Positions 353 to 15,737 of a stretch of DNA of 16,114 nucleotides are shown here, piece after piece (position 1 is the stretch's first letter; every line of letters starts with the position of its first letter). The DNA comes from Perkinsus olseni (taxonomy: Eukaryota; Perkinsozoa; Perkinsida; Perkinsidae), in assembly GCA_013115135.1 (NCBI GenBank), contig JABANP010000819.1, forward strand, positions 1 through 16,114. The letters are read 5' to 3'. The position numbers were made by a program, and so were the translations under genes. The notes below the pieces were generated by a model. That model did no database searches. It saw nothing but the letters and a program-made list of their open reading frames with translations, and had not been told where the DNA came from.

Positions 353-1241
353 GACTACAACAAGAAAAACAAGTCTTATCCTCTTCGACTACTATAATTG
401 GCTGGTACTATCGGTACAACTATGTCGTCACGAGCGATGAGAGCGGCCCTGTCGGGCCGACCAGCACTCTGACTCGAGAGAGAGGATAGTCAAGAAGGTG
501 ATCGTCGTGAAGAACAAGAAGGGAGGTTCCCTGCTGCCGACGAGGAGCACCCCGAAGACGACGAGCACTCGGACGACGATGAACATGATGATGAGCGAGA
601 GCACCCTGAGGAAGTGGGGCGGACGAGAGCACCCCGAGGGCGACGGTAGCTGAGGATCCGGAAAGGCCTGGCGGCAACTGACCCCCTAACGTCGACCTCT
701 ATGACGACCCCCGACGCTGTAGATCCGGTGGCCTGGCGCACCGGGACTTGACGCCCACTCCCAGGACAGCGAGAGAACTGTGAATGGTGAGGCCTGGCGG
801 CAACGCCACCCCCTCTATCTACCGCGCCGACCACTACGAATCGGACGGCATCCACTTTGACGCGGGTCGTACCGAGTATACTCGGGCCATTAAGGAGCAC
901 ATGGTTCAGGGTTCTTCGCTGTCGGGTATGTTACGAGTGGTATCTACACCCCATCTCCGGAGATGGACAATCGGTTGGCAAAGATATATAAGACGGTGAA
1001 CTTCGGTGAGGCAAAATGTTATGAGAAGGTCCGCCAATGGAATTGGTGTCAATCTATTTGGTCACCGGTGGATGGATCCATGGCTGATCTTGAGAAAAAG
1101 ATCAGACGGATGGATCAGGTCTTGATTCTTTCCACTATTTTCCTGAGTTTTGTCTCGAGTACCGTTTACACGATCAAGTGGGTGATCCACGGATCCGAAT
1201 CACCCTCCATAGATCAGATCGCACGTGGATCTCATATTTGA
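353..1241 (+). pseudogene. Decayed reading frame: acidic region followed by a membrane-anchored C-terminus
   Basis: I do not recognise this gene. Protein-like stretches follow one another in different frames: 353-484; 473-649, very rich in Asp/Glu around 504-610; 650-748; 784 to about 927; and 942-1241, which ends at a TGA. In-frame stops lie at 647-649 and 781-783. The last open stretch (ATG at 963, 92 codons) has a charged helix-like segment near residues 40-52 and then one likely membrane helix at about residues 53-75. A 15-base direct repeat (starting aggcctggcgg) occurs at 664-678 and 790-804. The frame change near 930 coincides with a decayed 14-bp insert, and deleting it joins the 784 frame smoothly to the 942 frame, which argues that the region was once coding. 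It could be an extra ORF of the downstream retroelement or a separate host gene. Confidence 0.35.
921..942. repeat. Decayed 14-bp flip-duplication insert
   Basis: With target octamer T = cgggtatc, bases 921-927 equal T(1-7), 928-935 match the reverse complement of T at 5 of 8 positions, and 936-942 match T(2-8) at 6 of 7. Direct copies of ggtat lie exactly 14 bases apart. Removing 14 bases moves the reading frame from that of 784-927 to that of 942-1241. Because 3 of 8 central bases have changed, this is an inferred old copy. Confidence 0.5.
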
Positions 1242-1870
1242 GAATCAGAATACTTGTTTATGACTCAGCTGAGGGAGTCGACGGATCAGGTCCCACGGAT
1301 CGGAGCACGTAGGCTTTAGAATTTGGCACGGTTAGGCCAAGCGATGCGAGTCTGGCTCTCTTGTCCCATTCGTCGCGTATCGATCGGCGTCAATATATTT
1401 TCATAGGATCAGATCATCTTGAGGGTACCGCTAAGGAATACCGCCGTAACAGGATCGGGCCTCTATAACACGTTACAAGAGAGTGATGCTGTGCGTGAGA
1501 CGATTGTCGGATCATGATGTCGTACCTTTGGATCATCCGAATCACCTACCTTGATCCACTGAGCCACTGGATCATGGATCACCGAAATATCTCAACGAGG
1601 CCGAGAATTTCTCATGCGAGTGATCCACGGGTCACGGATCACGAATTTGTCTCACGGATCAAGGATCGGAATCAAGAATCCGGATCAAGCGTGATCTGGA
1701 TCACCAATCGCGTATCAGGATCGTGGATCAAGATTCCGGCTCTTGCATCGAGGTTTGGGCCAGGAATCGCGGATCAGAATCGTTATTGCGGGATCTGACT
1801 GATTCAGACTTTTCGGATCTTGCTGTGATCTGGTTCACGAAGCCGGATCAATAGTGTTTTCGGATCATCG
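1068..1870. repeat. GATC-rich degenerate repeat tract
   Basis: By eye I count about 36 GATC tetramers, mostly as GGATC or GGATCA, in roughly 800 bases, where about three are expected by chance. The density falls off sharply outside the tract. Spacing is irregular, so this is not a clean tandem repeat. Local inverted pairs form, for example gtgatc-tg-gatcac near 1690. The tract lies just before gag and could be the 5' LTR or leader of the gypsy element, but no matching copy follows pol. A sequence starting tggtatcgaag at 1876 resembles a primer-binding site only weakly. Confidence 0.75.
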
Positions 1871-1927
1871 CACAGTGGTATCGAAGAAGGCGAGATCGAC
1901 CTTGAGTACGGCGACGGGCACGCCTTT

Positions 1928-3226
1928 ATGGAGGCCCTTGAGAAGCACGTGATAGAGTTGGAGGAGTATTATGCCTTCGACGTGGCGCTGCTTACTTGCA
2001 TCATTTTGGGTATCTTTGGTGACGAGCGCGCGGACCCTAGCGACCAGGCGCGTGTCAACGTGGCGATTGACATTTATCTCTCTACCCCTGGGGATGATGT
2101 GGCATCGGTGTTGGCTAAGGTGAGGTCTACGGGTTACCCACAGGCTCCGACGCCCACGACCGAACAGGAGACGGCCGCTCTAGCTCGGTTGGCAGCGACG
2201 GATATGATGACATGGGAGAGTGCTTGGCGAGGTTTATTTGGTTTGGCGGTTGCTTCCATTACGAAGGGCCGGGTTTCTATGCAAACTTATCAAGAGGCTC
2301 ACCGCGAGTGGCAGGCTGTGAAGCAAGGCGATGGTTCATTGGATACGTACTTATGTATGGAGCGGAAGAAGTTCAAGGCTTTGTCCAACGTGTGTGGCTA
2401 TTTGAGAGCCAATCCCCCTTCGGCATCTCAGAGGGGAGTGCTCATCTTACAGAATGTCCGATCCGACTATGCGGAGGCATTCAGTGCTTATCTACGGCGT
2501 GAACAGTTAGATGCTGCTGACGTCGAGTACCTCCAGGTCTGTGAGTGGTTGCAGCAGTACGATTCCCTATCGGCTAAGAAGTTCCCCTGGGAGAAGTCGG
2601 CTGATACTGTAGCCAAGGCTGGTGGTAAGGACAACGAAGGATATCGAGCGGGTTACAATAAGAACAACGGTTATGGGAAGAGTTCTGGTGGTGGTAATGG
2701 TGGTTATGCGAAGGGTTCCGGGGGCGGTTCCACTCAAGGGGTGGGCTACCTTGGTGCTGGATCCCAATCTAATCCATCTACGAAGGGTAAGGGTAGTGCG
2801 GCTATCCGTCCGTTGGCTGAGGCGTCTAACGTCAAGGTTAAGTGTGACCATTGTAAACGGTTGGGCCACAGCAAGGACAAGTGTTGGAAGCTACACCCTG
2901 AGCAACGCCCTAAGAGTAAGGATGGCGATAAGGCGGTGAAGTCCTTTGCTGAGAGAGGAGGCCATCTGTGGGGACTACTGGTGACTGCCTATAAGGCGAC
3001 GACTCGTGTGGTCCAGGACATCTACTTGGCTCCGGATACTGGCTCTGGGGAGACCCTGGTTCCTGAGGCGATTGCTAAGTCGGTTGGTACCAAGTGGACG
3101 AGGCTGAAGAGACCCCGGGCTATTCAAGGTATTGGAGGCCAGGTGTACAAGTTGGAGTGGCAGGTTACTTTAGAGGTATCTATTGGTGGGAAGCGATGCC
3201 GGGTTCGGGTCTGGTATTCCCCCTAG
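1928..3226 (+). CDS. Gag-protease polyprotein segment of the gypsy element
   Basis: 432 codons from ATG to TAG. The frame is open back to 1829 without another ATG, so translation may start upstream. Residues about 1-230 form a helical capsid-like part. Residues about 236-290 are a Gly/Asn/Tyr/Ser-rich linker. A CCHC zinc knuckle (C-x2-C-x4-H-x4-C) sits at Cys306, Cys309, His314 and Cys319 and should bind element RNA. An aspartic protease follows, with its Asp-Thr-Gly-Ser active site at residues 370-373. The frame ends at TAG 3224-3226, directly after a run of five C. Protease and pol homology continues in the -1 frame (a conserved LDFLEG stretch). The break fits either a programmed -1 shift between Pro and Pol or the loss of one C. 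I found no 14-bp insert here. Confidence 0.85.
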   Translation: MEALEKHVIELEEYYAFDVALLTCIILGIFGDERADPSDQARVNVAIDIYLSTPGDDVASVLAKVRSTGYPQAPTPTTEQETAALARLAATDMMTWESAWRGLFGLAVASITKGRVSMQTYQEAHREWQAVKQGDGSLDTYLCMERKKFKALSNVCGYLRANPPSASQRGVLILQNVRSDYAEAFSAYLRREQLDAADVEYLQVCEWLQQYDSLSAKKFPWEKSADTVAKAGGKDNEGYRAGYNKNNGYGKSSGGGNGGYAKGSGGGSTQGVGYLGAGSQSNPSTKGKGSAAIRPLAEASNVKVKCDHCKRLGHSKDKCWKLHPEQRPKSKDGDKAVKSFAERGGHLWGLLVTAYKATTRVVQDIYLAPDTGSGETLVPEAIAKSVGTKWTRLKRPRAIQGIGGQVYKLEWQVTLEVSIGGKRCRVRVWYSP

Positions 3227-3996
3227 ACTTCCTGGAAGGCGTCCCTACTGTGCTGTTGAGCTGGAAGGGCATCGAGGATTTAGAGGCCGTGGTGTGTATT
3301 CCCCAATCGGCTTTTACGAGTGGACTCCTGGGGGTGACTGTGCCGCTGATCTTGTTGACTGGGGAAGCTGATCGCCCCGCTATATCGGCTATGGCCCTGG
3401 AGTGCCGCCCCTTGGACGAGTCGGTTATTGATAAGAGGTTGAAGACATGGTCTTTCCCCAAGGTCTATGCGAAGAGACGTAAGGAATGTGTGCCCCCAAG
3501 GGCGCGGCCTTACCCGCCTGAGTCAAGAGAAGAGGCTGATGTGACTACTTGGCTTGTGGACTATATGTTGCCAGATGGAATTTGTGAAGAGGTATATCCT
3601 ACTAAAGAGGCTACTTTCCATAATGTCTATTTTAATCCGGTTTTCGTTGTACCTAAGTTCAAGGACCCAAGACCCGAGGGGATAATTAAGTCTAATGTTA
3701 GAGATTTCTATCGGTTGGTATTGGATGCGAGGCCTTCTAATGCCGCTACTTCTGACTTTACCCCGGGTTCGGGCTGGGTTGATTATACCCCCGGTGTTAT
3801 GCAGGCTTTGGGCAAGATCGATAGCTCTAAGCCCAAGTACTTTATGAAGATGGACATACGCCAAGCCTTTTGGTGTATGGAGTATGCTACCGATGATGAT
3901 ATGGAGACTCAGAGTTTGTTCGGAGCGGTGGTGACTGGTCCTGGTGGTAAGATGCGTTACTTCTTACATCGTAAGTTGGTTATGGGAATCCCATAA
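3094..3996 (+). CDS. Pol segment 1: end of protease region and reverse transcriptase fingers/palm
   Basis: Open in the -1 frame relative to gag-pro. Meaningful sequence starts at about 3205; codons before that are probably read only as gag-pro. The segment carries the RT N-terminal motifs with LDARPSN near 3721 and motif A, KMDIRQAFW, whose catalytic Asp codon is 3853-3855. It ends after a YFLHRKLVMG motif at a TAA (3994-3996) that lies inside a 14-bp flip-duplication insert. When the insert is ignored the frame runs straight into the next segment. RT copies element RNA into DNA in virus-like particles; that role is known for the family and not seen directly here. Confidence 0.85.
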   Translation: MDEAEETPGYSRYWRPGVQVGVAGYFRGIYWWEAMPGSGLVFPLDFLEGVPTVLLSWKGIEDLEAVVCIPQSAFTSGLLGVTVPLILLTGEADRPAISAMALECRPLDESVIDKRLKTWSFPKVYAKRRKECVPPRARPYPPESREEADVTTWLVDYMLPDGICEEVYPTKEATFHNVYFNPVFVVPKFKDPRPEGIIKSNVRDFYRLVLDARPSNAATSDFTPGSGWVDYTPGVMQALGKIDSSKPKYFMKMDIRQAFWCMEYATDDDMETQSLFGAVVTGPGGKMRYFLHRKLVMGIP

Positions 3997-4002
3997 TGGG
4001 AT
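3981..4002. repeat. 14-bp flip-duplication insert in the RT gene (perfect)
   Basis: Target octamer T = tatgggat. Bases 3981-3987 are T(1-7), 3988-3995 are the exact reverse complement atcccata, and 3996-4002 are T(2-8). All 14 determined positions match. The insert brings in the TAA stop and shifts the frame by -1. Deleting 14 bases joins VMG directly to WKHSNAWW, the position of the conserved gypsy RT motif just before the YVDD box. Confidence 0.95.
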
Positions 4003-4931
4003 GGAAGCATTCGAATGCATGGTGGTTCTCTGGGTTGGTGAACCTCTTGGAGGCAGTGGTCCCCGAGCTCAAGGACTTTCTGGTTCCGTATGTGGACGAT
4101 ATCTTGGTGGTGGCCAGCAGCCCTGAGGAGTGTCGACGCGTTTTCGCCTTGGTCGTCTATGCGTTGGAAGGAGCTGGATTGGAGTTGCCCCCGTCTAAGA
4201 GATCGTCAGAGCCTCGAGAATTCATCGACTTCCTCTCCTTGGAATTATCAGCCGATGGTTGGAGGTTGTCGGCGAAGTCAGTAAGTGACTTGGCGGACGT
4301 GTTGCGGAGTTACCCAGAGACAGTGGGTTCGCTGAGATCTGCTTTAGGGGTGATCAAGTACTGCAAGACAGGCTTCTCAACTCTCAAGGCTGATGTTTCC
4401 CTCTCGGCGTTGTTGGTCCCTTTCAATGACTTGTTGGCGAAGCTTCCGACCGACGTCCGTAAGGGTACGAAGGTGTCTTTGACCCCGGCATTGAAGCGAG
4501 CATGGTCCGACTTGTTCGACTATTGCCATAATCGTCTTCATGCTTGGCATGGTTTGAGTGAAATTCTACAAGAGGACATGGTATGGTTACTGATGACGGA
4601 TACCAGTCCGATAGCGACCAGTGCGACGCTCTGGCGAGTCCCTAGAGTACAAGTCCCTGGAGTTCGAGAGCTGGGAGACGAGGCCTTTCAGCAAGACGAC
4701 TTTGAGGGTCAGCTGGTGTTCACTTCGGCGAGGAAACTGACGAAGGCTCAGTCGAAGTGGGTTAACTTTGACCGCGAAATGTACGGCGTGATCCGAGGGA
4801 TGGCGATCGTTGAGGACGTGGTCATGGGTAGCTATGATTGGTCTAAGGTGGGGATGGATCCCCAACCGGTGCATCTAATAGTGGGTAACGATAACACCAC
4901 GGCTTTGGGCCGTTATTGGCTCAAGGGGTGA
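3996..4931 (+). CDS. Pol segment 2: RT catalytic YVDD box, thumb and RNase H
   Basis: The RT active-site box Tyr-Val-Asp-Asp is at 4089-4100, followed by thumb and connection sequence. RNase H acidic residues are visible: Asp in MTDTSP (codon 4599), Glu in DREMYG (codon 4776) and Asp in GNDNTTALG (codon 4890). The listed start is only where the frame becomes open; it continues the RT of the previous segment once the 14-bp insert at 3981-4002 is ignored. The frame ends at TGA 4929-4931 just after a run of four G. The RNase H tail resumes in the -1 frame. This break lacks the 14-bp pattern. A lost G, a -1 slip on GGGG, or two 13-bp duplications are possible. Confidence 0.85.
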   Translation: MGWKHSNAWWFSGLVNLLEAVVPELKDFLVPYVDDILVVASSPEECRRVFALVVYALEGAGLELPPSKRSSEPREFIDFLSLELSADGWRLSAKSVSDLADVLRSYPETVGSLRSALGVIKYCKTGFSTLKADVSLSALLVPFNDLLAKLPTDVRKGTKVSLTPALKRAWSDLFDYCHNRLHAWHGLSEILQEDMVWLLMTDTSPIATSATLWRVPRVQVPGVRELGDEAFQQDDFEGQLVFTSARKLTKAQSKWVNFDREMYGVIRGMAIVEDVVMGSYDWSKVGMDPQPVHLIVGNDNTTALGRYWLKG

Positions 4932-6049
4932 CCTCAACCGGAAGTACTATCCAGAGGCAGAGGTGGACGAGATGGTATGGAGAGATCGCGGATCTCACAC
5001 ACCTGATCCCCCTCGAGTATATGCATGTTCCGGGACGCCGGAACTGGCTATGTGACTTCTTCTCTCGTTTTACGGGAGAGCTATGCGGTCCAGTGTCGAC
5101 CGAGGCCGAGGAAGACAGTAAGTTATTCCTATGTATGGCCCTCTGTGATCAGGACGATCAAGAAGACGTCTCACGGGTGGAGCGCGTCAATGAGGACGAC
5201 GACATATCCCTTGGAGGCGAGGTCCGGGAAGGACTAGGGTTGGCTCCCAATGAAGGTGAGTACCCCACCAATAATGATCCGTCCGAGGCGTTGGGCGACC
5301 TCATTAAGAACAACGAGGCCCTAAGGTCCCAACTTATTCAACTTTATAAGGCCGATGCCGTTACCGAGATCAACAAGGTTCGACTCTGTGACGTTCATGC
5401 TACTTCGCTAACAGGAGGTGTCTACTCGGTGGGCGAAGACGGCCTGATCTACAAGTTGGTTTGTTATCGCGGAGAATTCCGCAGAGTTATAGTCATTCCC
5501 AGAGGGACTCTCGAGGAGAGTTTGATCTACTGGGTTGATAAGAGTTACGTACCTTCCCTACGACGAGATTTGGTAGGTTTGGTGCATCATGTGAGCGGAC
5601 CCGGAGATGTCCGAGCTGCGTTGAAGGCACTGCGCAAGTATGTTTGGTGGCCTGGTATGTCAGGTGAAGTGACGAGGGTGATTCAGGCCTGTAGTTCCTG
5701 TTGGGAGACGAAGGCTGGGGCGGATCTGGATACCCCGCCGAACCCAAGGGCTCCGACGGTGGAGAGATTCGACATTGTACACTGCGACTTCGGTCATCCT
5801 CCGACTGGTTTGGCGCAGGCTAGCGACCCTTCGTACGTGGCATTTCTACTGTTGGTATGTGGTGGTAGCGGTTTTGTGGTTTCTTCCCCGGTGGTCAGCG
5901 AGGATGCCGGCTCCTTGGTTCGAGTACTGGCGGAGAAGTGGATATGCTACTTTGGAGTACCAAAAACTTCGGTGAGTGATGGCGGGCCCGCGTATCGGTC
6001 CCGCGTCACGGAGATGATGGCGTCACTGCTGGGATTCCGGTGTCAGTGA
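4916..6049 (+). CDS. Pol segment 3: RNase H tail and integrase zinc-binding/catalytic domains
   Basis: It opens with the end of RNase H: the HVPGRRNW and FFSRF motifs near 5025-5075 are the usual YxPGxxNxxADxLSR ending. An acidic linker follows at about 5100-5330. The integrase HHCC zinc-binding domain has His codons at 5585 and 5588 and Cys codons at 5690 and 5699 (CSSC). The catalytic core shows Asp in HCDFG (codon 5786) and Asp in SDGGPAY (codon 5978). The third catalytic residue, Glu, lies in the next frame. The segment ends at TGA 6047-6049, inside the 14-bp insert at 6039-6060. The integrase inserts the cDNA into chromosomes (family knowledge). Confidence 0.85.
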   Translation: MAQGVTSTGSTIQRQRWTRWYGEIADLTHLIPLEYMHVPGRRNWLCDFFSRFTGELCGPVSTEAEEDSKLFLCMALCDQDDQEDVSRVERVNEDDDISLGGEVREGLGLAPNEGEYPTNNDPSEALGDLIKNNEALRSQLIQLYKADAVTEINKVRLCDVHATSLTGGVYSVGEDGLIYKLVCYRGEFRRVIVIPRGTLEESLIYWVDKSYVPSLRRDLVGLVHHVSGPGDVRAALKALRKYVWWPGMSGEVTRVIQACSSCWETKAGADLDTPPNPRAPTVERFDIVHCDFGHPPTGLAQASDPSYVAFLLLVCGGSGFVVSSPVVSEDAGSLVRVLAEKWICYFGVPKTSVSDGGPAYRSRVTEMMASLLGFRCQ

Positions 6050-6060
6050 CACCGTGTCAC
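6039..6060. repeat. 14-bp flip-duplication insert in the integrase core (perfect)
   Basis: Target octamer T = ggtgtcac. Bases 6039-6045 are T(1-7), 6046-6053 are its reverse complement gtgacacc, and 6054-6060 are T(2-8). All 14 determined positions match. It separates the second catalytic Asp from the catalytic Glu of the integrase and introduces the stop. Deleting 14 bases joins GFRC to HRVLGYNPQGN in frame. Confidence 0.95.
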
Positions 6061-6405
6061 CGGGTACTGGGGTATAACCCGCAAGGGAATGGCCTTGCGG
6101 AACGGTCGGTAGGCCTGATTAAGATGTTCATGGACCGACTTCCCCGAGCTCTACCCTGGGACTACGCTCTGACCTTGGCTACTTATTATCATAATCATGC
6201 GGTTGGTCAGGGACCGATGCCCGGTCCAGCAGAGTGCGCGTTGGGTGTGAGCCGAGGCCCCCTCCACTTGTTCTTTGGGGGTTTGGCAAGCTCTATGGAT
6301 GGTAAGAAGGTGCAGACTTCGGGAGGTTCTCACTTGGTCGAGGTCATCCGAGAGATCTGCCGAGAACATCTAAGATGTTACATCTTGACGATGCGGGGTA
6401 TTTGA
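6040..6405 (+). CDS. Pol segment 4: integrase core end with catalytic Glu
   Basis: After the insert the frame reads GYNPQGNGLAERS, the classic integrase NG-x2-ER box; the catalytic Glu codon is 6100-6102. The helix after it (VGLIKMFMDRL) and sequence up to REH near 6369 fit an integrase core C-terminus. From about 6372 the true frame shifts again at the third 14-bp insert, so the last ten codons before TGA 6403-6405 are out of frame. With the inserts at 6039 and 6365 set aside, segments 3 to 5 form one continuous reading frame. Confidence 0.85.
   Translation: MSVTPCHRVLGYNPQGNGLAERSVGLIKMFMDRLPRALPWDYALTLATYYHNHAVGQGPMPGPAECALGVSRGPLHLFFGGLASSMDGKKVQTSGGSHLVEVIREICREHLRCYILTMRGI
6365..6386. 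repeat. 14-bp flip-duplication insert after the integrase core (perfect)
   Basis: Target octamer T = aacatctt. Bases 6365-6371 are T(1-7), 6372-6379 are the reverse complement aagatgtt, and 6380-6386 are T(2-8). All 14 determined positions match. Deleting 14 bases joins REHL to DDAGYLRFE in one frame. Unlike the other two pol copies, the stop codon appears several codons downstream. Confidence 0.95.
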
Positions 6406-6959
6406 GGTTCGAGCGAGCGACGAGGTCAGCGGATTCCAAGAGTTCCCCACCTTTGCTCCCGGGTACGAAGGTTACCTGGAGTAGGGGAAACCGAGTGGAT
6501 TCGGCGGTGGTGATAAAGGCTCCAGACAGAGGCGGTGAGGTTCCCGAGGCCATTCACAAGTACGTGCATGCTGATCCTGATGCGAAGACGGTTTGGGTTC
6601 GTACCCATGAAGGCGTCGAGCAGAGGGTCCCTTATCGGCAGTTATCTGTGAGAGCTGAGGAGATCGAGTTTCGTGATCAGCCGATGCACGGAAGTCCGGT
6701 CACTCTAGCCCAGTTGAAGGCTGGAGAGTACGCTGTCGCGAACGTCAACTATGGTAAGAAGGCTCCCGCTTTCGTGATAGTCAGGGTGGAGGAAAAGTTC
6801 AAGTCCGACGTAGACGTGCAAGTCTATGATATGGAGCCGTCAACGGAGGTCTTCAGGCCCTTGTACACGGATCGTAGCCACGGAAACTTTCGCCTACAAC
6901 CAGAACGAGGTTTCCGTCTGTACAGGGTGCGGTTGCCGACGAGTTGCTTCCGAAGTTAA
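6375..6959 (+). CDS. Pol segment 5: integrase C-terminal SH3-like region and extra tail
   Basis: The segment ends at TAA 6957-6959. A stretch beginning LLPGTKVTWSRGN near 6456 resembles the SH3-like C-terminal domain of gypsy integrases (GPY/F region), which helps bind DNA. A second module, from about 6710 (LAQLKA) to the end, is rich in charged and aromatic residues and I do not recognise it. No chromodomain signature is evident. The start given is only where the frame opens; the real protein continues from the integrase core across the insert at 6365-6386. Confidence 0.7.
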   Translation: MLHLDDAGYLRFERATRSADSKSSPPLLPGTKVTWSRGNRVDSAVVIKAPDRGGEVPEAIHKYVHADPDAKTVWVRTHEGVEQRVPYRQLSVRAEEIEFRDQPMHGSPVTLAQLKAGEYAVANVNYGKKAPAFVIVRVEEKFKSDVDVQVYDMEPSTEVFRPLYTDRSHGNFRLQPERGFRLYRVRLPTSCFRS

Positions 6960-7166
6960 GGACCTAGACCTAAATCTTAGGTCCTAAGTTTCGTGTATTC
7001 CCTAAGTTATAGGCCCAATAACTCACAATTTTTATGATGTTGACATAATCAACAGCATGCCTCATGCAGTTGTGCTTTTCGGAAGCTTCTCAAGCCGACT
7101 CAGCTGATTCGAGATCGGAGATTTCTGTGCCGGTGGACACATAGTTTGCCTCGGCAATATCTTCAA
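6960..7166. other. 3' flank of the gypsy element, with hairpin
   Basis: No gene. Directly after pol there is a hairpin, gacctaa-atc-ttaggtc at 6967-6983 (7-bp stem, 3-nt loop). Inverted repeats tgttga/tcaaca (near 7039-7055) and gcatg/catgc follow. If a 3' LTR existed it should begin here. I see no copy of this sequence upstream of gag and no polypurine tract of note. Confidence 0.4.
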
Positions 7167-7238
7167 GCCGGTGTATCTCAGTGGTAGAGCGTCAGTCTTG
7201 TAAACTGAAGGTTGACGGTTCGATCCCGCCTTCCGGCT
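7167..7238 (+). tRNA. tRNA-Thr (UGU), possibly a pseudogene
   Basis: A 72-nt cloverleaf. The anticodon stem is a perfect 5 bp (tcagt/actga) around loop cttgtaa, giving anticodon TGT, read as threonine. The B box is ggttcgatccc, a good match to the pol III consensus. The A box is tatctcagtgg, where G10 of the usual TRGC is replaced by T. A T5 run at 7266-7270 can terminate pol III. Weak points are a T-T mismatch and a G-T pair at the base of the acceptor stem, a lost 10-25 pair in the D stem and an A-C mismatch in the T stem. CCA is not encoded. It could be a diverged working tRNA, a tRNA pseudogene or the head of a SINE. Confidence 0.75.
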
Positions 7239-7390
7239 AGTATTGTTGCATTGGAGCAGCGAGAGTTTTTCGGGAAAGTCAATTTCGTACGGTACTGAGA
7301 TCGAAAGTGTTCTGTTCACCGTCCGCACTGCGAAGGGCTCTGCGGAAGCAGTAGACTTTCTGACACCTCTAGCTGTGAAAGGCATCACCT

Positions 7391-7712
7391 GCTCAAGACG
7401 AAGAACATGACACTACACCCGGGGAAGACCAAGCAAAGACTAAGGAAGGTAGCACAAGGCAGGAGGATGGAATTATCACGTCGATGGATGCACAGCACTT
7501 GGTTCTTCAGGCGATCGTCACCCGCATGGGACTTCAACCGCTCAAGACCAAGAACATGACACTACACCCGAGGGGGACCGAGCAAAAACTAAGGAAGGTA
7601 GCACGAGGCAAGAGGATGGAATTATCGCGTCCATGAATGCACAGCACATTTTTCTTCAGGCGATCATCACCCGCGTGAGAGTTCAACCGCTCAAGACCAA
7701 GAGAATGACACT
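7391..7712 (+). repeat. 149-bp tandem repeat, about 2.1 copies
   Basis: Unit 1 is 7391-7539, unit 2 is 7540-7688 and a partial unit 3 runs from 7689 to about 7712. Each unit begins gctcaagac. Units 1 and 2 agree over most of their length, with scattered substitutions and no net length difference. Similarity of unit 3 ends at about the place of the 14-bp insert, after which only weak protein-level likeness remains. Confidence 0.9.
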
Positions 7713-7729
7713 GCGGCAGTGTCACTGCC
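7708..7729. repeat. 14-bp flip-duplication insert in the tandem-repeat gene (perfect)
   Basis: Target octamer T = acactgcc. Bases 7708-7714 are T(1-7), 7715-7722 are the reverse complement ggcagtgt, and 7723-7729 are T(2-8). All 14 determined positions match. Units 1 and 2 of the tandem repeat lack the inserted block at the matching place. Deleting it joins AQDQENDTA to PDGNKGQTTEKD in frame up to TAA 7808-7810. Confidence 0.93.
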
Positions 7730-7810
7730 CCCGACGGGAACAAAGGACAAACTACCGAAAAAGACATCGTGGACACCTTTGATTCTCCCATTGAAAGTAA
7801 TGAAGAGTAA

Positions 7811-8257
7811 TCCTTCCATGCGTCACGTTTGCTTCATTTAGTTGAGGAAATAGAGGAGTTTTCAGAAGCATCACCAAGTCGTGGAAGTCAAGCATTACCA
7901 CTAGGAATCAGGAACCCAGAAAGTACAACAACCTTCCATTCCATTATTTACTCTGTACAATCTTAGACCAAACAAGACCACCAAAGAGATCGTGTACATC
8001 TCGAATGGAAAAGGAGGGATACAATATTAAAAGAAGAAGAACCGGTAAGTCACGTATGGAAACCAAGATTTTTTTACTCGACATATCTTAGATAGTAGCT
8101 CACCGATAAGCAGTCCTCAGTAACTACCAGCAGAACCCCGAGAACTCATCGAGGACATTATTACACATATAGCCGCTATCAATGTAAGCTGTCGACAAAA
8201 TAAATTCCACATATATTTTTCAACGTTTAGGAAAAATCGCAACAGTTGAATGAACAA
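7811..8257. other. Intergenic, nothing recognised
   Basis: Moderately AT-rich with no convincing open frame. A good splice-donor-like ggtaagt occurs at 8044-8050 after a purine-rich stretch, and a T7 run lies near 8070. Either could belong to an upstream exon or leader of the next gene, but nothing in the sequence shows this. Confidence 0.35.
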
Positions 8258-8402
8258 ATGGAAGGTTCGTCGCCGAAGGCGGAAGACCGCTTGAAGGGGA
8301 AGACGTATCCGGCTTGGGTACAGAAGATGATTCTGCAAGTCAGCAAGGAGGCTGTCCGGGAGGGAGTGGAGAAGTGGGGGAAGATCTACCTACCTTTCCA
8401 CC

Positions 8403-8424
8403 CGATGAACTTCATCGGATGAAG
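8403..8424. repeat. 14-bp flip-duplication insert (perfect), first in the 8258-8696 gene
   Basis: Target octamer T = cgatgaag. Bases 8403-8409 are T(1-7), 8410-8417 are the reverse complement cttcatcg, and 8418-8424 are T(2-8). All 14 determined positions match. It introduces the TGA at 8420-8422. Deleting 14 bases joins LPFHPM to KQDKFWEG. Confidence 0.95.
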
Positions 8425-8498
8425 CAGGATAAGTTCTGGGAGGGGATGCAGCAGCTGTTCGACGGATACAGCCAACTCCACGGAATGTCGAAGTTTGC

Positions 8499-8520
8499 CC
8501 GCAGTGACTGCGGCGCAGGC
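8499..8520. repeat. 14-bp flip-duplication insert (one mismatch), second in the 8258-8696 gene
   Basis: Target octamer T = ccgcagtc. Bases 8499-8505 are T(1-7) and 8506-8513 are the exact reverse complement gactgcgg. Bases 8514-8520 match T(2-8) except for G instead of T at 8519. 13 of 14 determined positions match. Deleting 14 bases joins MSKFAR to PKQLTEAFRK in frame. Confidence 0.92.
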
Positions 8521-8696
8521 CGAAGCAGCTGACTGAGGCTTTCCGCAAATCCTACCTGGATAAACTTTGCCTCCAGATGGGCTGGGAGAAGAGCGACTTC
8601 GGCATGAAATCGACGAAGGACTTGTCGGCCAGCCTAAAGGGAGAGATGAAGAAGGCAACAGACGCGATCGTCTCGAGGGCAAGCACCGGGGATTAA

Positions 8697-9149
8697 GCCG
8701 GGAATAGCGGTATTTCGGCCATCTCCCCAGGAGAAATGTCACCAATCCATACCCCAAACTGAAGGTAGAAACGATTCAACTCTCAAATGCTTTTATTTTC
8801 TTTAACAGTTACCCTACCTCCGCCAAGTTCCGTCTATCCAAATGTCAAGTATCAGATGTCCAGTCCAGATTATGATGATGGAAATCAATGTCGTTTGATT
8901 TTTTTTATTTTGGACAGATGTTTAGTTGAAAAAAGTAAATATGGATTACATCGTGGATGATCCCAAACCCGGACGCCAGATCTAACAAGGAAACAACCCC
9001 AAATCCGGTGCTACTAATATCTTGAGGAATCTACAATATACTCAATTGACAACTCAACCTATAACACTGCTTGTACTCTTCCCGACTACTCCACACAAAA
9101 CAAACTATCCTTCAGTGGTTTCCGGAGGCCTAAACACCCAAACACCTAA
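8697..9149. other. Intergenic, nothing recognised
   Basis: AT-rich with a T8 run near 8899-8906. No coding frame, RNA gene or repeat is recognised. The right edge is where LINE coding similarity begins abruptly (stop TAA at 9147-9149), so the 5' truncation point of the LINE is probably in or near 9100-9150. Confidence 0.4.
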
Positions 9150-10790
9150 CACGACATCACCGAGGCCCTCAGCGCTCTGGTGCGTGCATTAACGCCTGAA
9201 GCTCCTGCCACGGCGGTTGCCACCTGGTGGACACCTCGGCTAGGGAAGTTGAAGGCTAAGCTCAAGAGGGCCCAGCGGCGATATCACCGTCATAAGCGCG
9301 AGCACGGCCCTGACGCTCCCTCTACGGCTCATCACCGTGAGGTGCGTAGTAGTGCCGCGCGACGGAAGTTCAATGCGTAGGCCAAGAAGGCAAAGGGAGC
9401 AGCGGCGAACAGGTTCTACAACCTTCAGCACTACTCCCGATGTGTTAGGCGGGGTTCTCCCCGCATTCCACCGGCGGTCATCTGTCCGCCCGGTGTGAAC
9501 CAGGCCGACTTCCTACTCTCACGGCTACTGCCCTCTGACCCCACTAGGGATCGGGACGTAGCCCAGGTAGCCTGGCCAAATCAGGAAGAGCCCATCCCTC
9601 CAGTGTCGCTTGCGGAACTGAGGGATGCGGCAGATGAACTGCGACGAGGTGCAGTTCCAGGGTCCGACGATGTCACCAACGACATCATTAAGGACTCGCT
9701 TCCGGAGCTCGGGGAACACTGGACTTACCAGTTAACCCGATGTCTCCAATTCGGGCTATACCCCTTCGGCTGGAAACAAAGCCGAGGGGTATTTGTGCAC
9801 AAACCAGGCCGGGACCCCAGCCTTCCTAATGGCTGGCGACCCATATGCTTGGTCAAATCGGGGAGCAAGCTCTTCGAGAGGATTATCGTGGAACACCTCT
9901 TGAGCTGTCCACAGATAGCCGATCGGTTACGCTCCCCAGCTGTGCACGGTTTTTGCCGAGGGAAGAGCGTGGACAGCGCGGTTCACCGCGTGATGGGGTT
10001 GTTTCGTGATGGTAAGCGCCGTGGCAAGAACTGCCCGGCTGCTACGATACAGATCGATGTCCGGAACGCCTTCCCCAGTGTGCGCCACAGCCACGTCTTG
10101 AGGACTTTGGCTGAGTACAAGGTTCCTCCCTATCTCCTGGATATACTGAAAAGTTATCTAGGGGGACAGGCTGTGAGCGCCGACTATGGTTGCGACCACG
10201 GAGAACGCGGATTGCAATGTGGGGTTTAGCAAGGAAGTGTCCTCGGACCTTTCTTGTACCTGCTGAGCACTCTTCCTCTCGTGGATCGCTTTAAGCCTTT
10301 AGAAGCCCAGGGGATTTTCCTGACGCTCTTCGATGACGATACGACGATCAGCCTGTCTGCAGGGACACGCGCTGCTCTCGTCAACAAGTGGAAGCGAGCC
10401 GAGGGGCATCTCCTCGAATGGGCTGACGACGCGGGGTTGAGCTGGGAACCGGAGAAGTCCCAAGCTCTTATCCCTCGCACTATTGGAGAAGACCTCACTC
10501 TGCAGGACGTACCAATCCAGGTCGTCAATGTACTGCGGGTGCTTGGGGTCTGGAGCGATAAAAGGCTGACGTTTCAACACCATATCCGGTTGAAGGTGTC
10601 TGAAGCGTTGGCCAAGTTGAATCGAATGCGGCACCTGGGTTGGGAGCGTGCTTCCCTCACCAGTGCCATGTAAGTCATACGGACCTATAGGGTAGGCATC
10701 CTGCCTGGACTAACACACGGAGTGTGTGTGTGGTACGACGGCCTCCAAGTCTACCACAGCCAGGGCTCTGGTGATGCGAGTGCCAGTAAT
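9150..10790 (+). pseudogene. LINE reverse transcriptase
   Basis: Starts inside the pre-RT linker (DITEALSALVRALTPEA, then a Lys/Arg-rich helix). RT motifs are GSDDVTNDIIK near 9663, NGWRPICLVKSGSKLFER near 9827-9885, GFCRGKSVDSAV near 9950, motif A with IQIDVRNAFPSV (Asp codon 10056), QGSVLGPFLY near 10230, and the active site FDDD at 10329-10340 instead of the usual Y/F-A-D-D. The thumb has NVLRVLGVWSDKRL near 10527. Stops TAG 9378-9380, TAG 10227-10229 (just before the QGSVLGP box) and TAA 10671-10673 interrupt an otherwise continuous frame. The family role is copying LINE RNA at a nicked chromosomal target. Confidence 0.88.
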
Positions 10791-11558
10791 GGTGGCGCGG
10801 ATCGCTCTTCGAGCCCCGCGAAATGCCTCCAATTCTGCTCTCGTTGTTGTCGCAGGATTGGCGCCTGCCCATGTGGGATTAGCTGGCATGGCCGCTAGAC
10901 TAGCTAATCCGGCGCTAGACGACTAGGCTTGCTTGGAGATGAGATAGCCCTTGGCCGCCTTCTGAAGGTTAAGGGTCTCCAGCATGAGCAGCCTTCTGTG
11001 GCTATCCAGCAATGGCGGGCGCTCCCCATACAACCTCGGGAGACTCGTCTTGGTACGGTTATCGCAGAGCGGGAGCAGGCCTTGCACTATGCTAAGCAGG
11101 CCACGCGCTCTCGCAATGCGATCTATGCGGATGGTTCGGTGGTCCTCGACCGGCGAGCAGGTGCTGGGTGTGTGTTCTTCCGCAAGGGAGTCCAAGTGCA
11201 CTCAGCATCTTGGCGTCTACCGTCCTACTCTTCCATAACGGAGTGTGAGCTCCATGCGGTTGAGCAGGCGGCTCGCTGGGTTATTGGTAACGCCGTAGCA
11301 GGCGAAAGCTGGGAGATCTTCACGGACTCCCAAGCGGTCTTGAGGATATTGGCTAGCCGAGCCAGAACTCAGAACTGGGAGAAGGCAAGGCAGATTGCCA
11401 TCCTCCTTCGAGGACTCACCGAGCTAGTACGGTTACACTGGGTCCCACGGCACTCCGAAGTCGAGGGCAATGAGGTAGCTGACCAGCTGGCGGCCCAAGG
11501 CGGTAGCCTCTCAGAGGTGAATGCTGAGGGATGCGTCAGTGGTCGAACTCTCACTTGA
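10726..11558 (+). pseudogene. LINE connection region and RNase H
   Basis: 10790-10900 reads IALRAPRNASNSALVVVAG in the +1 frame. This resembles the LINE connection segment between RT and RNase H. After the 20-bp insertion the original frame resumes (LGLLGDEIALGRLLK). RNase H acidic residues: Asp in YADGSV (codon 11130), Glu in ECELHAV (codon 11247), Asp in FTDSQAVL (codon 11325); HWVPRHSEVEGNEVAD near 11436-11483 supplies the last motif. All four RNase H motifs are intact. The frame stops at TGA 11556-11558, one C-to-T step from CGA. Confidence 0.85.
10893..10920. repeat. 20-bp insertion with 8-bp duplication in the LINE
   Basis: The octamer cgctagac occurs at 10893-10900 and again at 10913-10920, with 12 bases (tagctaatccgg) between. 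gctag-a-ctagc across the first junction is a 5-bp palindrome with a 1-nt centre. Deleting 20 bases restores the LINE reading frame exactly (MAAR to RLGLLGDE). It resembles the 14-bp inserts in having a duplicated target and a length of 3n+2, but the middle is not the full reverse complement of the target. It may be a variant or a later-modified copy. Confidence 0.7.
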
Positions 11559-11990
11559 TACTTGAAGGAGCAGATGCGCATCGCCACACGCTTCTGGTGA
11601 TCTGATGAGCGCGCCAAGTTGGGAACTGCTATGAAGGGGTTCTTCTTCTGTGTCTCCCACGCATCATTGTGGATTCGCAGGGAAGTTACTCCGGCAGCCA
11701 GTGTGGTGGTGTTCGGTCGGGCTATGACCCCTGCGCACCGTTTCCGCTGCGACCTAGCTACCTCTCCGGAGTGTGGCTGCGGTTTTCCGATTGGGGATTT
11801 CCGCCACTATCTGCAGTCGTGTCCGTTCTTGGCACCTGCGCGGAAGAGGGTGGCCGGGGGAATACCCTTCCATCTCTACAGGATCGTGACGGACCTGAAG
11901 CGCCGAAAGGCCTCCAACCGTTTTATGAAGGCTATCATGGAGCATCTGGACGTCACTGCTGCAGCACAGCAAGACGTCCCACCGGATTAG
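11559..11990 (+). pseudogene. LINE C-terminal Cys/His-rich region
   Basis: Same frame as the RNase H, after TGA 11556-11558 and TGA 11598-11600. It includes MTPAHRFRCDLATSPECGCG and then HYLQSCPFLAPARKR, i.e. a C-x-C ... H ... C arrangement typical of the short zinc-binding tail of I/Jockey-like LINEs. It ends at TAG 11988-11990. The tail is thought to bind nucleic acid; this is family knowledge. Confidence 0.75.
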
Positions 11991-12273
11991 CGAAGGAGCC
12001 AGCCACACTATAGGTGCGGTGGCAGCCGGTAATTGAGAAGATGCTGCTGTTCGCTGGCGGCGGCAACTCGGAGGAAGGAAGACAGCAGCTGAGGAAGACC
12101 GCAGCAGCTGGCGACGGAAGAGTTTCTGAAGATCACTATTGTGTAAGATTGGCGTGACAGCCGGCGCCCTTTGTGCTGAGAGACGTGGCGATTATACCAT
12201 GTACAGCACGATGTATAAGGAAAGTTTCCATTGAAACACGAAGATATACATACACCTGGATAACTCATCCCCC
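11991..12273. other. LINE 3' untranslated region or intergenic
   Basis: CAG/GGC-rich with near repeats (two cagcagctg copies at about 12080-12115). Composition changes after about 12150. No poly-A run or simple tail marks the LINE end. No gene was recognised. Confidence 0.35.
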
Positions 12274-12994
12274 TCAAAACGAACGACTGCTGGCTTCACT
12301 TATTCGTTTTATCATTGAAAGTGATTTCCACATGCTCATCATCCCTTCCGCGCCCATGACCTTCGCTAGCAGGCTCCAATGTTCTACGCCTAACGACCAT
12401 ATAGCACAACACGATCGACACGCGATCAAAACGCATCGCCTGCTTTTCTCCACAACAAGCGTAGCCTCGCGCTCTGCCTCATCTTTAGTGAGACCCATAC
12501 ACTAAAAATGTTCCACGATGTCCTCGTAGCCAATGAATCCACAATCCTTCACCTCAGGCATACCAATGAAAAGGCACGTAATAGTTCCAAACAACACCCC
12601 GATCCAATAATATACCAAACATCGTTTGCAAAAGAAGCACACGATACCCCTTCTGCATAGTATAGGATAATCTCATACACTTGTGTATCAGAAATGGCAC
12701 GAGGTTCTAGTGGGTTCCGTCTGCGAGCTAACATCAGACGCACTATGTGGGAGATATTCCCCACAATGGAACCCCCAATAGATCTTCTAGCCGAGACTGC
12801 TCGCATGTAACATGTGGCTACACAAGAATAAACGAATCTAACTTGTTGCCAATCAGATACACAACCCTGGTACATGGGCGTGGAAATCGCTGACTAGGAC
12901 GCCGAGGATTGATAATCATCGCAATCTGCAAAGCAATATTTCCAGGAATAAGAGCCGAAGATATAGCCTTCTTCCTCATCGGCAGAACCGCCAT
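12274..12994 (-). CDS. Unrecognised protein, three inferred exons
   Basis: On the minus strand an ATG at 12994-12992 starts MAVLPMRKKAISSALIPGN. Two inferred GT..AG introns, 12787-12842 (56 nt, gttaga...ggctag) and 12502-12563 (62 nt, gtatgc...tttttag), join three open stretches in one frame. Exons are 12843-12994, 12564-12786 and 12274-12501, giving 200 codons before TGA. Exon joins read YLIGNK to RSIGGS and RAFSL to CMGLTKDEAE. Both introns are 3n+2 long. The middle and end have hydrophobic helices, but no clear signal peptide or known motif. I checked both junctions for the 14-bp insert pattern and did not find it. The model rests on splice-site logic alone; alternatives include a frameshifted pseudogene. 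Confidence 0.45.
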
Positions 12995-13369
12995 CGTAGC
13001 TTCAGCCTACCAGAGTGCGACTTACCACACTCTTACCAACAAAGTTCGACAAATCCTATTGGTCCTTCCGTAGAGCAACTTACAATGTAGACACTCTAAA
13101 GCTTTTTCCATCCACGACTGGGTATTTGGTAGTACCAAATACCCAGTCGTGGATGGAAAAAGTCTACCAAATTGGTACACTAGTAATTATAAATTTCATT
13201 GGGCTTGTCAACTCCGCCACTAAAACTTCAACAAAACAACGCTTATCGTATTTACAAAGTCTGTAATACAAACTATTCCCAACTAATAAAACCACAAATA
13301 AAATATTGCCGACCACACTCCTCAATAAATAGCTCACACCGCCCACCAGCAAGCTCAGTAGCAAAAAAA
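12995..13369. other. Intergenic region with large hairpin
   Basis: AT-rich, with no coding frame recognised. It contains the perfect 30-bp inverted repeat at 13102-13162 and a small palindrome taccaa-a-ttggta at 13165-13177. Confidence 0.4.
13102..13162. repeat. Perfect 30-bp inverted repeat with 1-nt centre
   Basis: Arms 13102-13131 (beginning ctttttccatcc) and 13133-13162 are exact reverse complements around a single G at 13132. The flanks do not extend the pairing, and no direct third copy follows, so it does not fit the T(1-7)/rc/T(2-8) rule. Such a hairpin with an almost absent loop usually comes from fold-back copying; an assembly artefact is possible. Confidence 0.95.
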
Positions 13370-14127
13370 TTAGCACTTGTCCTTATCATCTGCATCAGAT
13401 CGACTACTCACATAAATGGTATCTATTGGATGGAAACCCAAACTAGCGTCAAACTCAGCTTTTCTAAACCTACCTCCAGAGCTAGAATTAACTGAAGATT
13501 CCAAAGTGCATTGATCAGCTTCTTCACCAAGAATTATGCTGGACGTATCTAAAAGCATATATCTCTCATTAACAAGAAGGTAATGAATATTACCGCTACA
13601 ACGATCTTCACCTTGATGGAACTGCAATCTAGACGAACAGCTCCAATTGTCTTCTTCAACACTGGTATGCTGTGAACTAGATTGAGCACTTACAACGTTT
13701 TACTCGGAACTTTGATTTCCACCGCTGGACCAACCACGGTAAGCTCGCGCGAAAAAGATTACAACCATTAACCGGTTCTTCAAAAAATTTAAAACCAAAG
13801 GTCCCCTATAAACCAAATATGATAAGTTACCGCTTCGACTATCTTCACTCTGATGGAAATGAAATATAGACGAACGGCTCCAAGTGTCTTCTTGTACGCT
13901 GGTATGCTGTGAACTAGATTGGGCACTTGCAGTGTTATACTCCGAACTTTGGTATCCATCCACCAAAGGAATACCTGAAAGATCCACTTGAATCTTACCC
14001 GAGAAAAAATGGAATTACGACCATTCTCCGCTTCATCGCGTGGCGATCCAGCAACACTACTATGCACACTCACAACCTCAACGGGATCTTCCGTAAGATC
14101 AATAACAGAATTGTCTTCAGAGGACAT
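13370..14127 (-). CDS. Tentative Ser/Gln-rich acidic protein with internal duplication
   Basis: The minus-strand ATG at 14127 gives MSSEDNSVIDLTEDPVEVV, a plausible N-terminus that stays readable to about 14000. A second frame from 13987 reads QSSEYNTASAQSSSQHTS and continues to 13370, with a single in-frame TAA at 13700-13702 where the duplicated copy has TAT. Joining the two frames needs a -1 change. A 47-nt GT..AG intron ending tttcag near 13975 would do it, but other solutions exist. The long unit is Ser/Gln/Glu/Asp-rich and looks disordered. No family is recognised. It may be a pseudogene. Confidence 0.3.
13591..13961. repeat. Two copies of a ~135-bp repeat, 237 bp apart
   Basis: Copy A is 13591-13722 and copy B is 13828-13961. 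Both begin taccgct and share ggtatgctgtgaactagatt exactly. Identity is roughly 80% by eye. The spacer of about 105 bp is not repeated. The copies have diverged at both silent and replacement positions. Confidence 0.85.
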
Positions 14128-14256
14128 GAATAAAAAACAGTACTAACCTACCAAAAATAACCGAGTCGATAACAATATAATGAAGTTATTGGATCCAACC
14201 AAATGGAAAACACAAATCCAAAACCAATCAAGATATGATTAGGAGATTATCCCAGC

Positions 14257-14655
14257 TTATGCTTCCAACTCCGCAAGATACTGGTCGCTGCGATCCTTCG
14301 CTAACTTCCGAAACCGAGTACCAACCGGCTTCATGTTCTTGAAATAATCATTAGGAATATCAAACCGCTTCGTAATCTTTTCAAGCACGCTCTCGTGCAC
14401 ACACGCTTTCCCATACCATTCCGATGTTTGTCCTTCAAAGTCAATGTCGTTTCTGGAAGCGTAATCCCTCACCACAGAATCGAAACCATCCCAGTAAATA
14501 GCCTTCTTGAATGGACCATATTACAACAAAGCCCTACCATAAACGTTATACTCTAGCAACTTCTCAGTGTACACCTTCTCCGCCATAAGTTCAGCGATGC
14601 AAGCAGGGCACGACACCGGTCTTCTAGCAGTGGCAGGCCTACCGATCCTACCCTC
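14257..14655 (-). pseudogene. Unrecognised gene fragment with one in-frame stop
   Basis: On the minus strand an open frame from 14655 (after TAG 14656-14658) contains RRPVSCPACIAELMAEKVYT and then, after TAA 14521-14523, YGPFKKAIYWDGF and a charged C-terminus ending QYLAELEA and TAA. The sequence reads naturally on both sides of the internal TAA, which could be a C-to-T change from CAA. There is one CxxC pair and no recognised domain. It begins exactly where the adjacent LINE fragment ends, so its upstream part was probably displaced by that LINE or by a deletion. Confidence 0.5.
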
Positions 14656-15429
14656 CTAAGCTCGACCATTGTCCACTGAGGAATGAGCGCACCATGTCCG
14701 CAAAACCACAGTTGGCTAAACGGCCAACAGCTGCACAAATTGAGTCGTGGCTAATGGAGTTCAACGCCGCCACCGCGTCAAACGCCGCGACGGCCCGCAG
14801 TCCTAGGCTCCCAGCATTGTCTTCTAGAGCACTTGAGAGATGCTTCCATGCTGTGTCGGTCGACCTATTGGATGCGAATCCATGCAGGAAGGGAGGGAGG
14901 GCGCCTATGGATCCCTCAAGCCGTCCGCTTATGACTGCTTCACAGACTTTCTCCGAGAAAGTTCCTCGCAAGTGTCAGCGAGAGCGACACGGGTCTAAAT
15001 TTTGACCAACCCGTTCGGTTTCCTTTCTTCCTCAGCAGAATTACCTCAGCGCCCTGAAAGCACCTTGGGAAATATTGGAAACGGAGGATTGCTGTCATGA
15101 GCAGGCTCAAAGCGGCAGCCCAACGGCCGTTACATCTCGAAGCTACGTGGATGTGTTCGTATGCGACGTCGTCAGATCCAGATGCTCGGCCTTCGGGACG
15201 AGCAGCTATAGCACTTTCAAGCTCTTCTCGAGAGACTGGTCCTCCCATATCTTCAAGTGAGGCCCGAGTGCTGGGAAAATGTACACCCTAGGGGAGACGG
15301 TGTCTCCGAAGAATGTGGACGCTGTAACCCTCCATTACGGAACCGAGCAGCAGCGAGTATCGAATATACGCTCGGCTTACTAAGCAGACTCGCATGCGCA
15401 TAGCAACGCCCAGCGGCAGCCACTCGATG
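14648..15429 (-). mobile_element. Second LINE fragment: N-terminal half of a reverse transcriptase
   Basis: Minus strand. 15429 down to about 15255 is an open frame (AAAGRCYAHASLLSKPS) preceding the RT. 15248 down to about 14962 has VSREELESAIAARPEGRASG, then GSDDVAYEHIH, VILLRKKG and KFRPVSLSLTLA. 14961 down to 14648 has GFASNRSTDTAWKHLSSAL, motif A-like LRAVAAFDAVAALNSISHD and FLSGQWSSLGG, ending at TAG. The YADD box and everything after it are absent, so the copy is truncated at both ends. It differs from the plus-strand LINE. One break coincides with a 14-bp insert (14947-14968) plus a probable 1-base loss; the break near 15255 is unexplained. Confidence 0.82.
14947..14968. repeat. 14-bp flip-duplication insert in the second LINE (one mismatch)
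   Basis: Read on the minus strand with T = cgagaaag: 14968-14962 match T(1-7) with one difference (cgaggaa), 14961-14954 are the exact reverse complement ctttctcg, and 14953-14947 are T(2-8), exact. 13 of 14 determined positions match. The frame change here is +1, so an additional 1-base deletion close by is needed to explain the LINE frame. Confidence 0.88.
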
Positions 15430-15604
15430 CTATCAGATGAAACGACGGACCGTATATCCCCATATAAGTGATTCGACTGTACTGAAAGAATAACAGTGTA
15501 TCCATATAAATTGATTTACTGGACACTCTCGACTCGAGAGAGTCCCGAGGATGCCGATTCAGTTCCTCGATAGGGAATCAGGGTATCGCCGTCCAACCTG
15601 CCGT

Positions 15605-15626
15605 CCTCGTGGCACGAGGCTCGTGC
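15605..15626. repeat. 14-bp flip-duplication insert (perfect), non-coding
   Basis: Target octamer T = cctcgtgc. Bases 15605-15611 are T(1-7), 15612-15619 are the reverse complement gcacgagg, and 15620-15626 are T(2-8). All 14 determined positions match. No reading frame is affected. Confidence 0.95.
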
Positions 15627-15715
15627 GCGAGTCGCTGGAAATACATCTCATGGTGTCCACGATTTCGGCCTAGGAGCACGCAGCGCCTGCCTGGCAGGCA
15701 TAACCGGGAGTAACA

Positions 15716-15737
15716 CGCCCGGGCCGGGCGGCCCGGC
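15716..15737. repeat. 14-bp flip-duplication insert (perfect), non-coding
   Basis: Target octamer T = cgcccggc. Bases 15716-15722 are T(1-7), 15723-15730 are the reverse complement gccgggcg, and 15731-15737 are T(2-8). All 14 determined positions match. High GC makes chance somewhat less negligible than at the other sites, but the exact register is the same. Confidence 0.9.

Follow-up and report, generated by a model that had tools for sequence, protein, structure and literature searches.

Because their excision footprints vary, cut-and-paste transposons seldom leave a trace of their movement that is easy to read. The footprints of Ds and other elements of the hAT superfamily contain palindromes, each centred on the complement of whichever base adjoins the element; arms as long as 20 nt were reported in yeast, and 28 different footprints, with arms of at most 3 nt, were counted among 128 revertants in Candida (PMC5873905). 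In the case of the hAT protein Kat1, hairpins mostly arise one nucleotide away from the element (PMC4763223), and for mPing, as for Ac in yeast, the homology used at the joint is supplied by element-adjacent sequence (PMC4561436). The introner elements of the parasitic dinoflagellate Amoebophrya have direct plus inverted repeats (PMC7789003). Here we describe a class of uniform 14-bp insertions, called scars below, in a 16,114-nt stretch of Perkinsus olseni DNA (contig JABANP010000819.1 of assembly GCA_013115135.1, our contig C800 of the 61.5-Mb genome; referred to as the window) and in other parts of the genome. Each scar turns an 8-base target T into T(1-7)+rc(T)+T(2-8), where rc denotes the reverse complement, and the scars are most likely left by the excision of hAT-type DNA transposons.

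The likeness to the footprints of Ac/Ds and other hAT elements lies in the target duplication and in palindromes that are centred in the same way; the difference is that those footprints are varied, whereas here the full 8-nt arm dominates as one product. With mPing the scars share a joint whose homology comes from the sequence beside the element, but the mPing ends are proposed to anneal in direct orientation and restore the empty site, whereas here annealing would be between inverted arms and 14 bp would remain. The Amoebophrya introners are introns with a sequence of their own; in contrast, the scars contain no conserved insert and are depleted from long open frames. The preliminary description of the window, which knew of no named element with this structure, has to be revised in this respect: the scar can be read as the full-arm version of the hAT P-nucleotide footprint (PMC5873905). 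The accessible portions of the footprint literature, mainly open-access, contained no uniform genome-wide scar class of such form. What is new is most likely the uniformity and the number of the scars, the kind of event, hAT excision, being already known.

Candidate sites were scored by the number of matches out of 14. An exact scan of the window found seven sites at 14/14, compared with 0 in one first-order Markov shuffle, two sites at 13/14 and three more at 12/14. The perfect scars are located at 3981..4002 (T=TATGGGAT), 6039..6060 (GGTGTCAC), 6365..6386 (AACATCTT), 7708..7729 (ACACTGCC), 8403..8424 (CGATGAAG), 15605..15626 (CCTCGTGC) and 15716..15737 (CGCCCGGC), and the scars with a single mismatch at 8499..8520 (CCGCAGTC) and 14947..14968 (CTTTCTCG). 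These are nine of the ten sites listed in the preliminary description; the tenth, at 921, is not supported, the best score nearby being only 9/14, at 923. The 12/14 sites include two probable mutated scars at 6968..6989, directly past the retroelement frame discussed below, and at 13252..13273, and a possible mutated scar at 15678..15699.

The same form is abundant in a 200-kb sample of the window's own genome, made of 20 stretches of 10 kb that were picked by contig number and are therefore non-random. With a target length of 8 and an offset of one, the sample contains 46 perfect scars, compared with 0 in one first-order Markov shuffle. At the same offset, lengths 5, 6 and 10 gave 10, 3 and 1 perfect matches (4, 0 and 0 in the shuffled sequence), and lengths 7, 9, 11, 12 and 13 gave none; length 8 at offsets 0, 2, 3 and 4 gave 0, 0, 0 and 1, and offsets 0 and 2-4 gave at most five matches at any length tested. 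No other target length from 5 to 13 shows an excess comparable to that of length 8. Extrapolation by simple scaling from 0.3% of the genome gives approximately 14,000 intact scars genome-wide. Places with 0, 1, 2, 3 and 4 changes number 46, 39, 43, 71 and 365 in the sample and 0, 0, 2, 21 and 160 in its shuffled counterpart; as far as this background permits counting, the supply of scars is roughly constant and they decay by point mutation.

We also counted joints in which T1-7 and T2-8 are separated by 1-16 P-nucleotides in approximately 295 kb, with the mean of three shuffles as a control. The 8-base form was found 78 times, compared with 0 in the shuffled sequence, in a count that is blind to precise or deleting repairs. 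It is by far the largest class above background, and other joints may exist.

The distribution of scars among individual stretches can be noted separately. Five of the 20 sample stretches have no match at 12/14 or better, and one (L001:1-10000) is very scar-dense, with 10 perfect scars and 19 at 12/14 or better in 10 kb. The loci picked for their hAT domain (L021-L040) contain 32 perfect scars in 60.8 kb and are denser than the 200-kb sample. At L009:8011-8050 two perfect scars overlap, and the second seems to have inserted into the terminal part of the first.

Comparison with paralogous loci bears directly on the origin of the 14-bp blocks. Among 134 scars scoring at least 13/14 in the loci studied, 30 have a paralogous stretch that spans the site, and in 20 of these 30 a paralogue is exactly 14 bp shorter. 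Three of the 20 lie within a long terminal repeat (LTR)-type retroelement of the window, and three of the 20 alignments have less than 70% identity; two of the sites have a further paralogue with other length differences (1 and 11). In eight cases the scar is common to both copies (four scars, each counted from both duplicates, in the pairs L022/L031 and L024/L035), and the remaining two cases have alignments of only 65-67% identity. As a side observation, stretch L016 has a 95%-identical copy on contig C521.

Neither of the two further genomic copies of the retroelement that were found, L042 and L043, has the scars at 3981, within the pol region, at 6039, in the integrase region, and at 6365. 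Relative to L042, with 149 substitutions in 4,612 aligned columns, the three 14-bp scars are the sole gaps of more than one base, and relative to L043 they are the sole gaps of more than three bases. Since no other gap of more than one base separates the window copy from L042, scars may rank among the main causes of short insertions that shift reading frames in this genome. Outside the retroelement, the paralogue L045 on contig C88 is 14 bp shorter at 7708, 8403 and 8499, each of these gaps being split or displaced in one or both of the two alignments made (split at 8403, and split in one of the two at 7708 and 8499). The scar at 7708 lies at the end of a tandem duplication (7385-7563 and 7534-7712, 88% alike).

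Judged from these alignments, the 14-bp blocks are insertions and not ancestral repeats. The preliminary description had proposed a self-templated insertion, copied from its target in a single fixed architecture, and had pointed to a genome-wide scan against shuffled sequence, to other target lengths and to paralogues lacking the insert as ways to check it. The proposal is borne out by all three: the excess of 46 over 0 is real, it is large only at length 8, and the empty sites exist. The 6-nt duplication suggested there is better taken as a duplication of 8 bp with its inner terminal bases taken up in hairpin tips.

The large excess is confined to a target length of 8, which is the hAT duplication length, and to an offset of one, which is the hAT hairpin offset. 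An 8-bp target duplication combined with flanking hairpins one nucleotide off the element is the geometry of hAT excision, and the hairpin intermediate is proposed from this geometry. In the model, a transposon would land in an 8-bp target T and duplicate it, giving T-element-T. At its exit the transposase would seal each flanking end as a hairpin, displaced by one nucleotide from the element; the left hairpin would read T1..T7 followed by T8'..T1', and the right end would be its mirror image. Each hairpin would next be opened by a host nuclease, several nucleotides away from its tip, and the 3' arms, which are complementary over the target, could anneal; trimming, fill-in and sealing would yield T(1-7)+rc(T)+T(2-8). 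The joining could be carried out by annealing repair, perhaps with polymerase theta. A predicted polymerase theta is encoded at L050:2-3622 (contig C744), with helicase, POLQ_helical and HTH_61 domains in a single frame and polymerase A matches adjoining, and a Pso2/Artemis-type domain is also present in the genome.

We simulated this pathway on random letters, assuming annealing of the longest complementary stretch and the same opening distance for the two hairpins. The observed form was obtained in 400 of 400 trials at each opening distance from 7 to 15 nt, in 396 of 400 at 6 nt and in 176 of 400 at 5 nt, and in none at 1-4 nt. A single product over such a wide range of opening distances would explain the uniformity of the scars without a precise nuclease. 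We propose more tentatively, with slightly less than even confidence, that this lineage has a near-deterministic hairpin-repair route, consisting of far opening and annealing, which turns most hAT excisions into one 14-bp scar, and that the genome is a base-resolution log of thousands of transpositions, with landing sites and ages readable from a single assembly. If the scars are uniform, a single genome would suffice for counting past jumps, landing preferences and ages, and the scars would represent a natural case of transposon hairpins joined mostly in one predictable way.

The targets carry a weak, symmetric (palindromic) preference. The pattern nTnnnnAn, as reported for Hermes (PMC10368747; PMC2803484), is found in 15 of 84 distinct perfect targets compared with 4.9 expected, a three-fold excess. 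The pattern nnnTAnnn is found in 4 of the 84, with 3.7 expected, and the four flanking bases tested on each side of these 84 targets show no significant preference.

Elements of hAT type are present in the genome, where the hAT dimerisation domain has at least 21 matches. One family, with the Pfam domains DUF4371 and Dimer_Tnp_hAT, has two copies that are 99.8% alike over 1.9 kb and 99.4% alike over the last 0.8 kb; they are bounded by exact 8-bp duplications, TAGGGCTT and CCTGATTC. The empty site of the TAGGGCTT copy is present, with one base different (TAGGCCTT), in the paralogue L045. In a second hAT family, with ends TAGAGATGGGCA, one copy has the duplication GTCCGGAG. The end motif of one family occurs in 35 exact copies, compared with 5 of the reversed pattern. 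At L032:1227-1248, a 12/14 scar abuts a hAT end (TAGAGATGGGCA) at 1249, and the 8 bases just ahead of the element come close to repeating the scar target; a further 1.8 kb did not reveal the far end of this element.

Several observations weigh against hAT excision, or against the uniformity of its repair. The hAT copies look few beside the number of scars, although few copies per many scars are possible under long-lasting cut-and-paste movement. A two-ended search of 277-295 kb for standing elements with 8-bp duplications yielded one clear hAT-like filled site, in L024, a locus picked for its hAT domain, and none in the 200-kb sample. No locus with the element in one copy and a scar in another was seen in the loci studied, where no systematic search for such pairs was made; the hAT origin is therefore one that we infer. 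Among the three standing hAT duplications, only GTCCGGAG fits nTnnnnAn. Published hAT footprints are mixed and often short. Joints other than the 8-base form are somewhat above the shuffled level: gaps of 1-6 bases between T1-7 and T2-8 number 47, 14, 12, 4, 2 and 3 (shuffled mean 32.7, 10, 3.3, 1.3, 0.7 and 0), and gaps of 10 and 14 bases were found once each, compared with 0, with some of these joints counted twice because their loci are duplicated, so that the uniformity is strong but incomplete. Finally, a partial Ku match of 28.3 bits in the genome indicates that classical end joining may exist, and if present it predicts varied joints.

The absence of classical end joining from this organism, which we considered separately, is not supported, in view of the partial Ku match. 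Among the matches of the two-ended search, four of six in one run and five of eight in the other fall within L013, where nested matches at 3248-6105 suggest a single long inverted repeat.

The excess of scars over the hAT copies found also suits an account in which no lasting insertion is needed, a domesticated or hit-and-run hAT-like enzyme making 8-bp staggered breaks and hairpins directly or via a briefly resident element. Kat1 offers a precedent: this hAT transposase has been domesticated, and the breaks it makes are capped by hairpins (PMC4763223). We consider this account improbable, since a real insertion is the simplest source of a duplicated target, and a long period of cut-and-paste activity would presumably give many scars per standing copy unaided. 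A source in another superfamily with 8-bp duplications, namely Mutator-like, P or Merlin elements, for which the genome was not searched, appears marginally less probable still. Merlin and P elements have target duplications in the 8 or 8-9 bp range. The same range holds for Muta1, whose excision, when it was flanked by its duplications, was precise in approximately 90% of revertants (PMC5225508). This argues against such a source, as do the lack of any perfect match at length 9 in the 200-kb sample and the one-nucleotide offset, which hAT hairpins share.

Slippage during replication, if the template were switched twice over 8 bases (forward, inverted, forward), would yield identical letters. 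We regard it as distinctly unlikely, because lengths and offsets should then vary, whereas the large excess is limited to length 8 and offset one, and because the base preferences in the target are symmetric.

The relation of scars to reading frames bears on the suggestions of the preliminary description (eliminated sequences, introns, translational bypass elements), under which the 14 bp would be removed from DNA or RNA, or bypassed in translation, and tolerated by genes. Frames do reopen beyond 3981, 6039 and 6365 in a frame shifted by 14, as an internal eliminated sequence, a mini-intron or a translational bypass element would have it. At 6039, the left frame has a weak Pfam rve match (24.4 bits, cut-off 32.6) that ends at most two residues before the frame end within the scar. 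The other retroelement copies, however, are simply without the 14 bp. When frames are read without the scar, one of the 46 sample scars lies within a frame open for at least 200 codons, compared with 17.4% of places drawn at random from those stretches, and the distribution of open-frame lengths for these scars is shifted as a whole (Mann-Whitney P = 0.0015). In the full set of 84 distinct perfect scars, which takes in the retroelement and the hAT loci, 8.3% are in long open frames compared with 21.6% of random places. Such depletion is predicted by selection against frameshifts and not by introns, eliminated sequences or bypass elements; as an indirect test it suggests that scars are probably not removed from genes. 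With many scars mutated and some common to duplicated DNA, removal or bypass is very unlikely, and these suggestions are not supported. An assembly or sequencing artefact is the least likely explanation of all, since four scars are common to the duplicates L022/L031 and L024/L035, scars are found mutated, and a few overlap each other.

The surroundings of the scars in the window include several other features. The LTR-type retroelement occupies positions 1-362 and 2301-6956. Its first part, 1-362, matches sequence that lies downstream of the pol region in both of the other retroelement copies, and no second copy of these bases is present among the self-matches listed for the window. A tRNA-Thr (TGT) gene is located directly behind the retroelement, at 7166-7239, and a second reverse-transcriptase frame (Pfam RVT_1), apart from the LTR-type element, at 9381-10229. 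In the genome, and in keeping with a perkinsid source, CCGTAGCCATYTTGGCTCAAG, the spliced-leader motif of dinoflagellates and perkinsids, has 85 matches compared with none for a reversed control, and its variable place is C among the matches listed.

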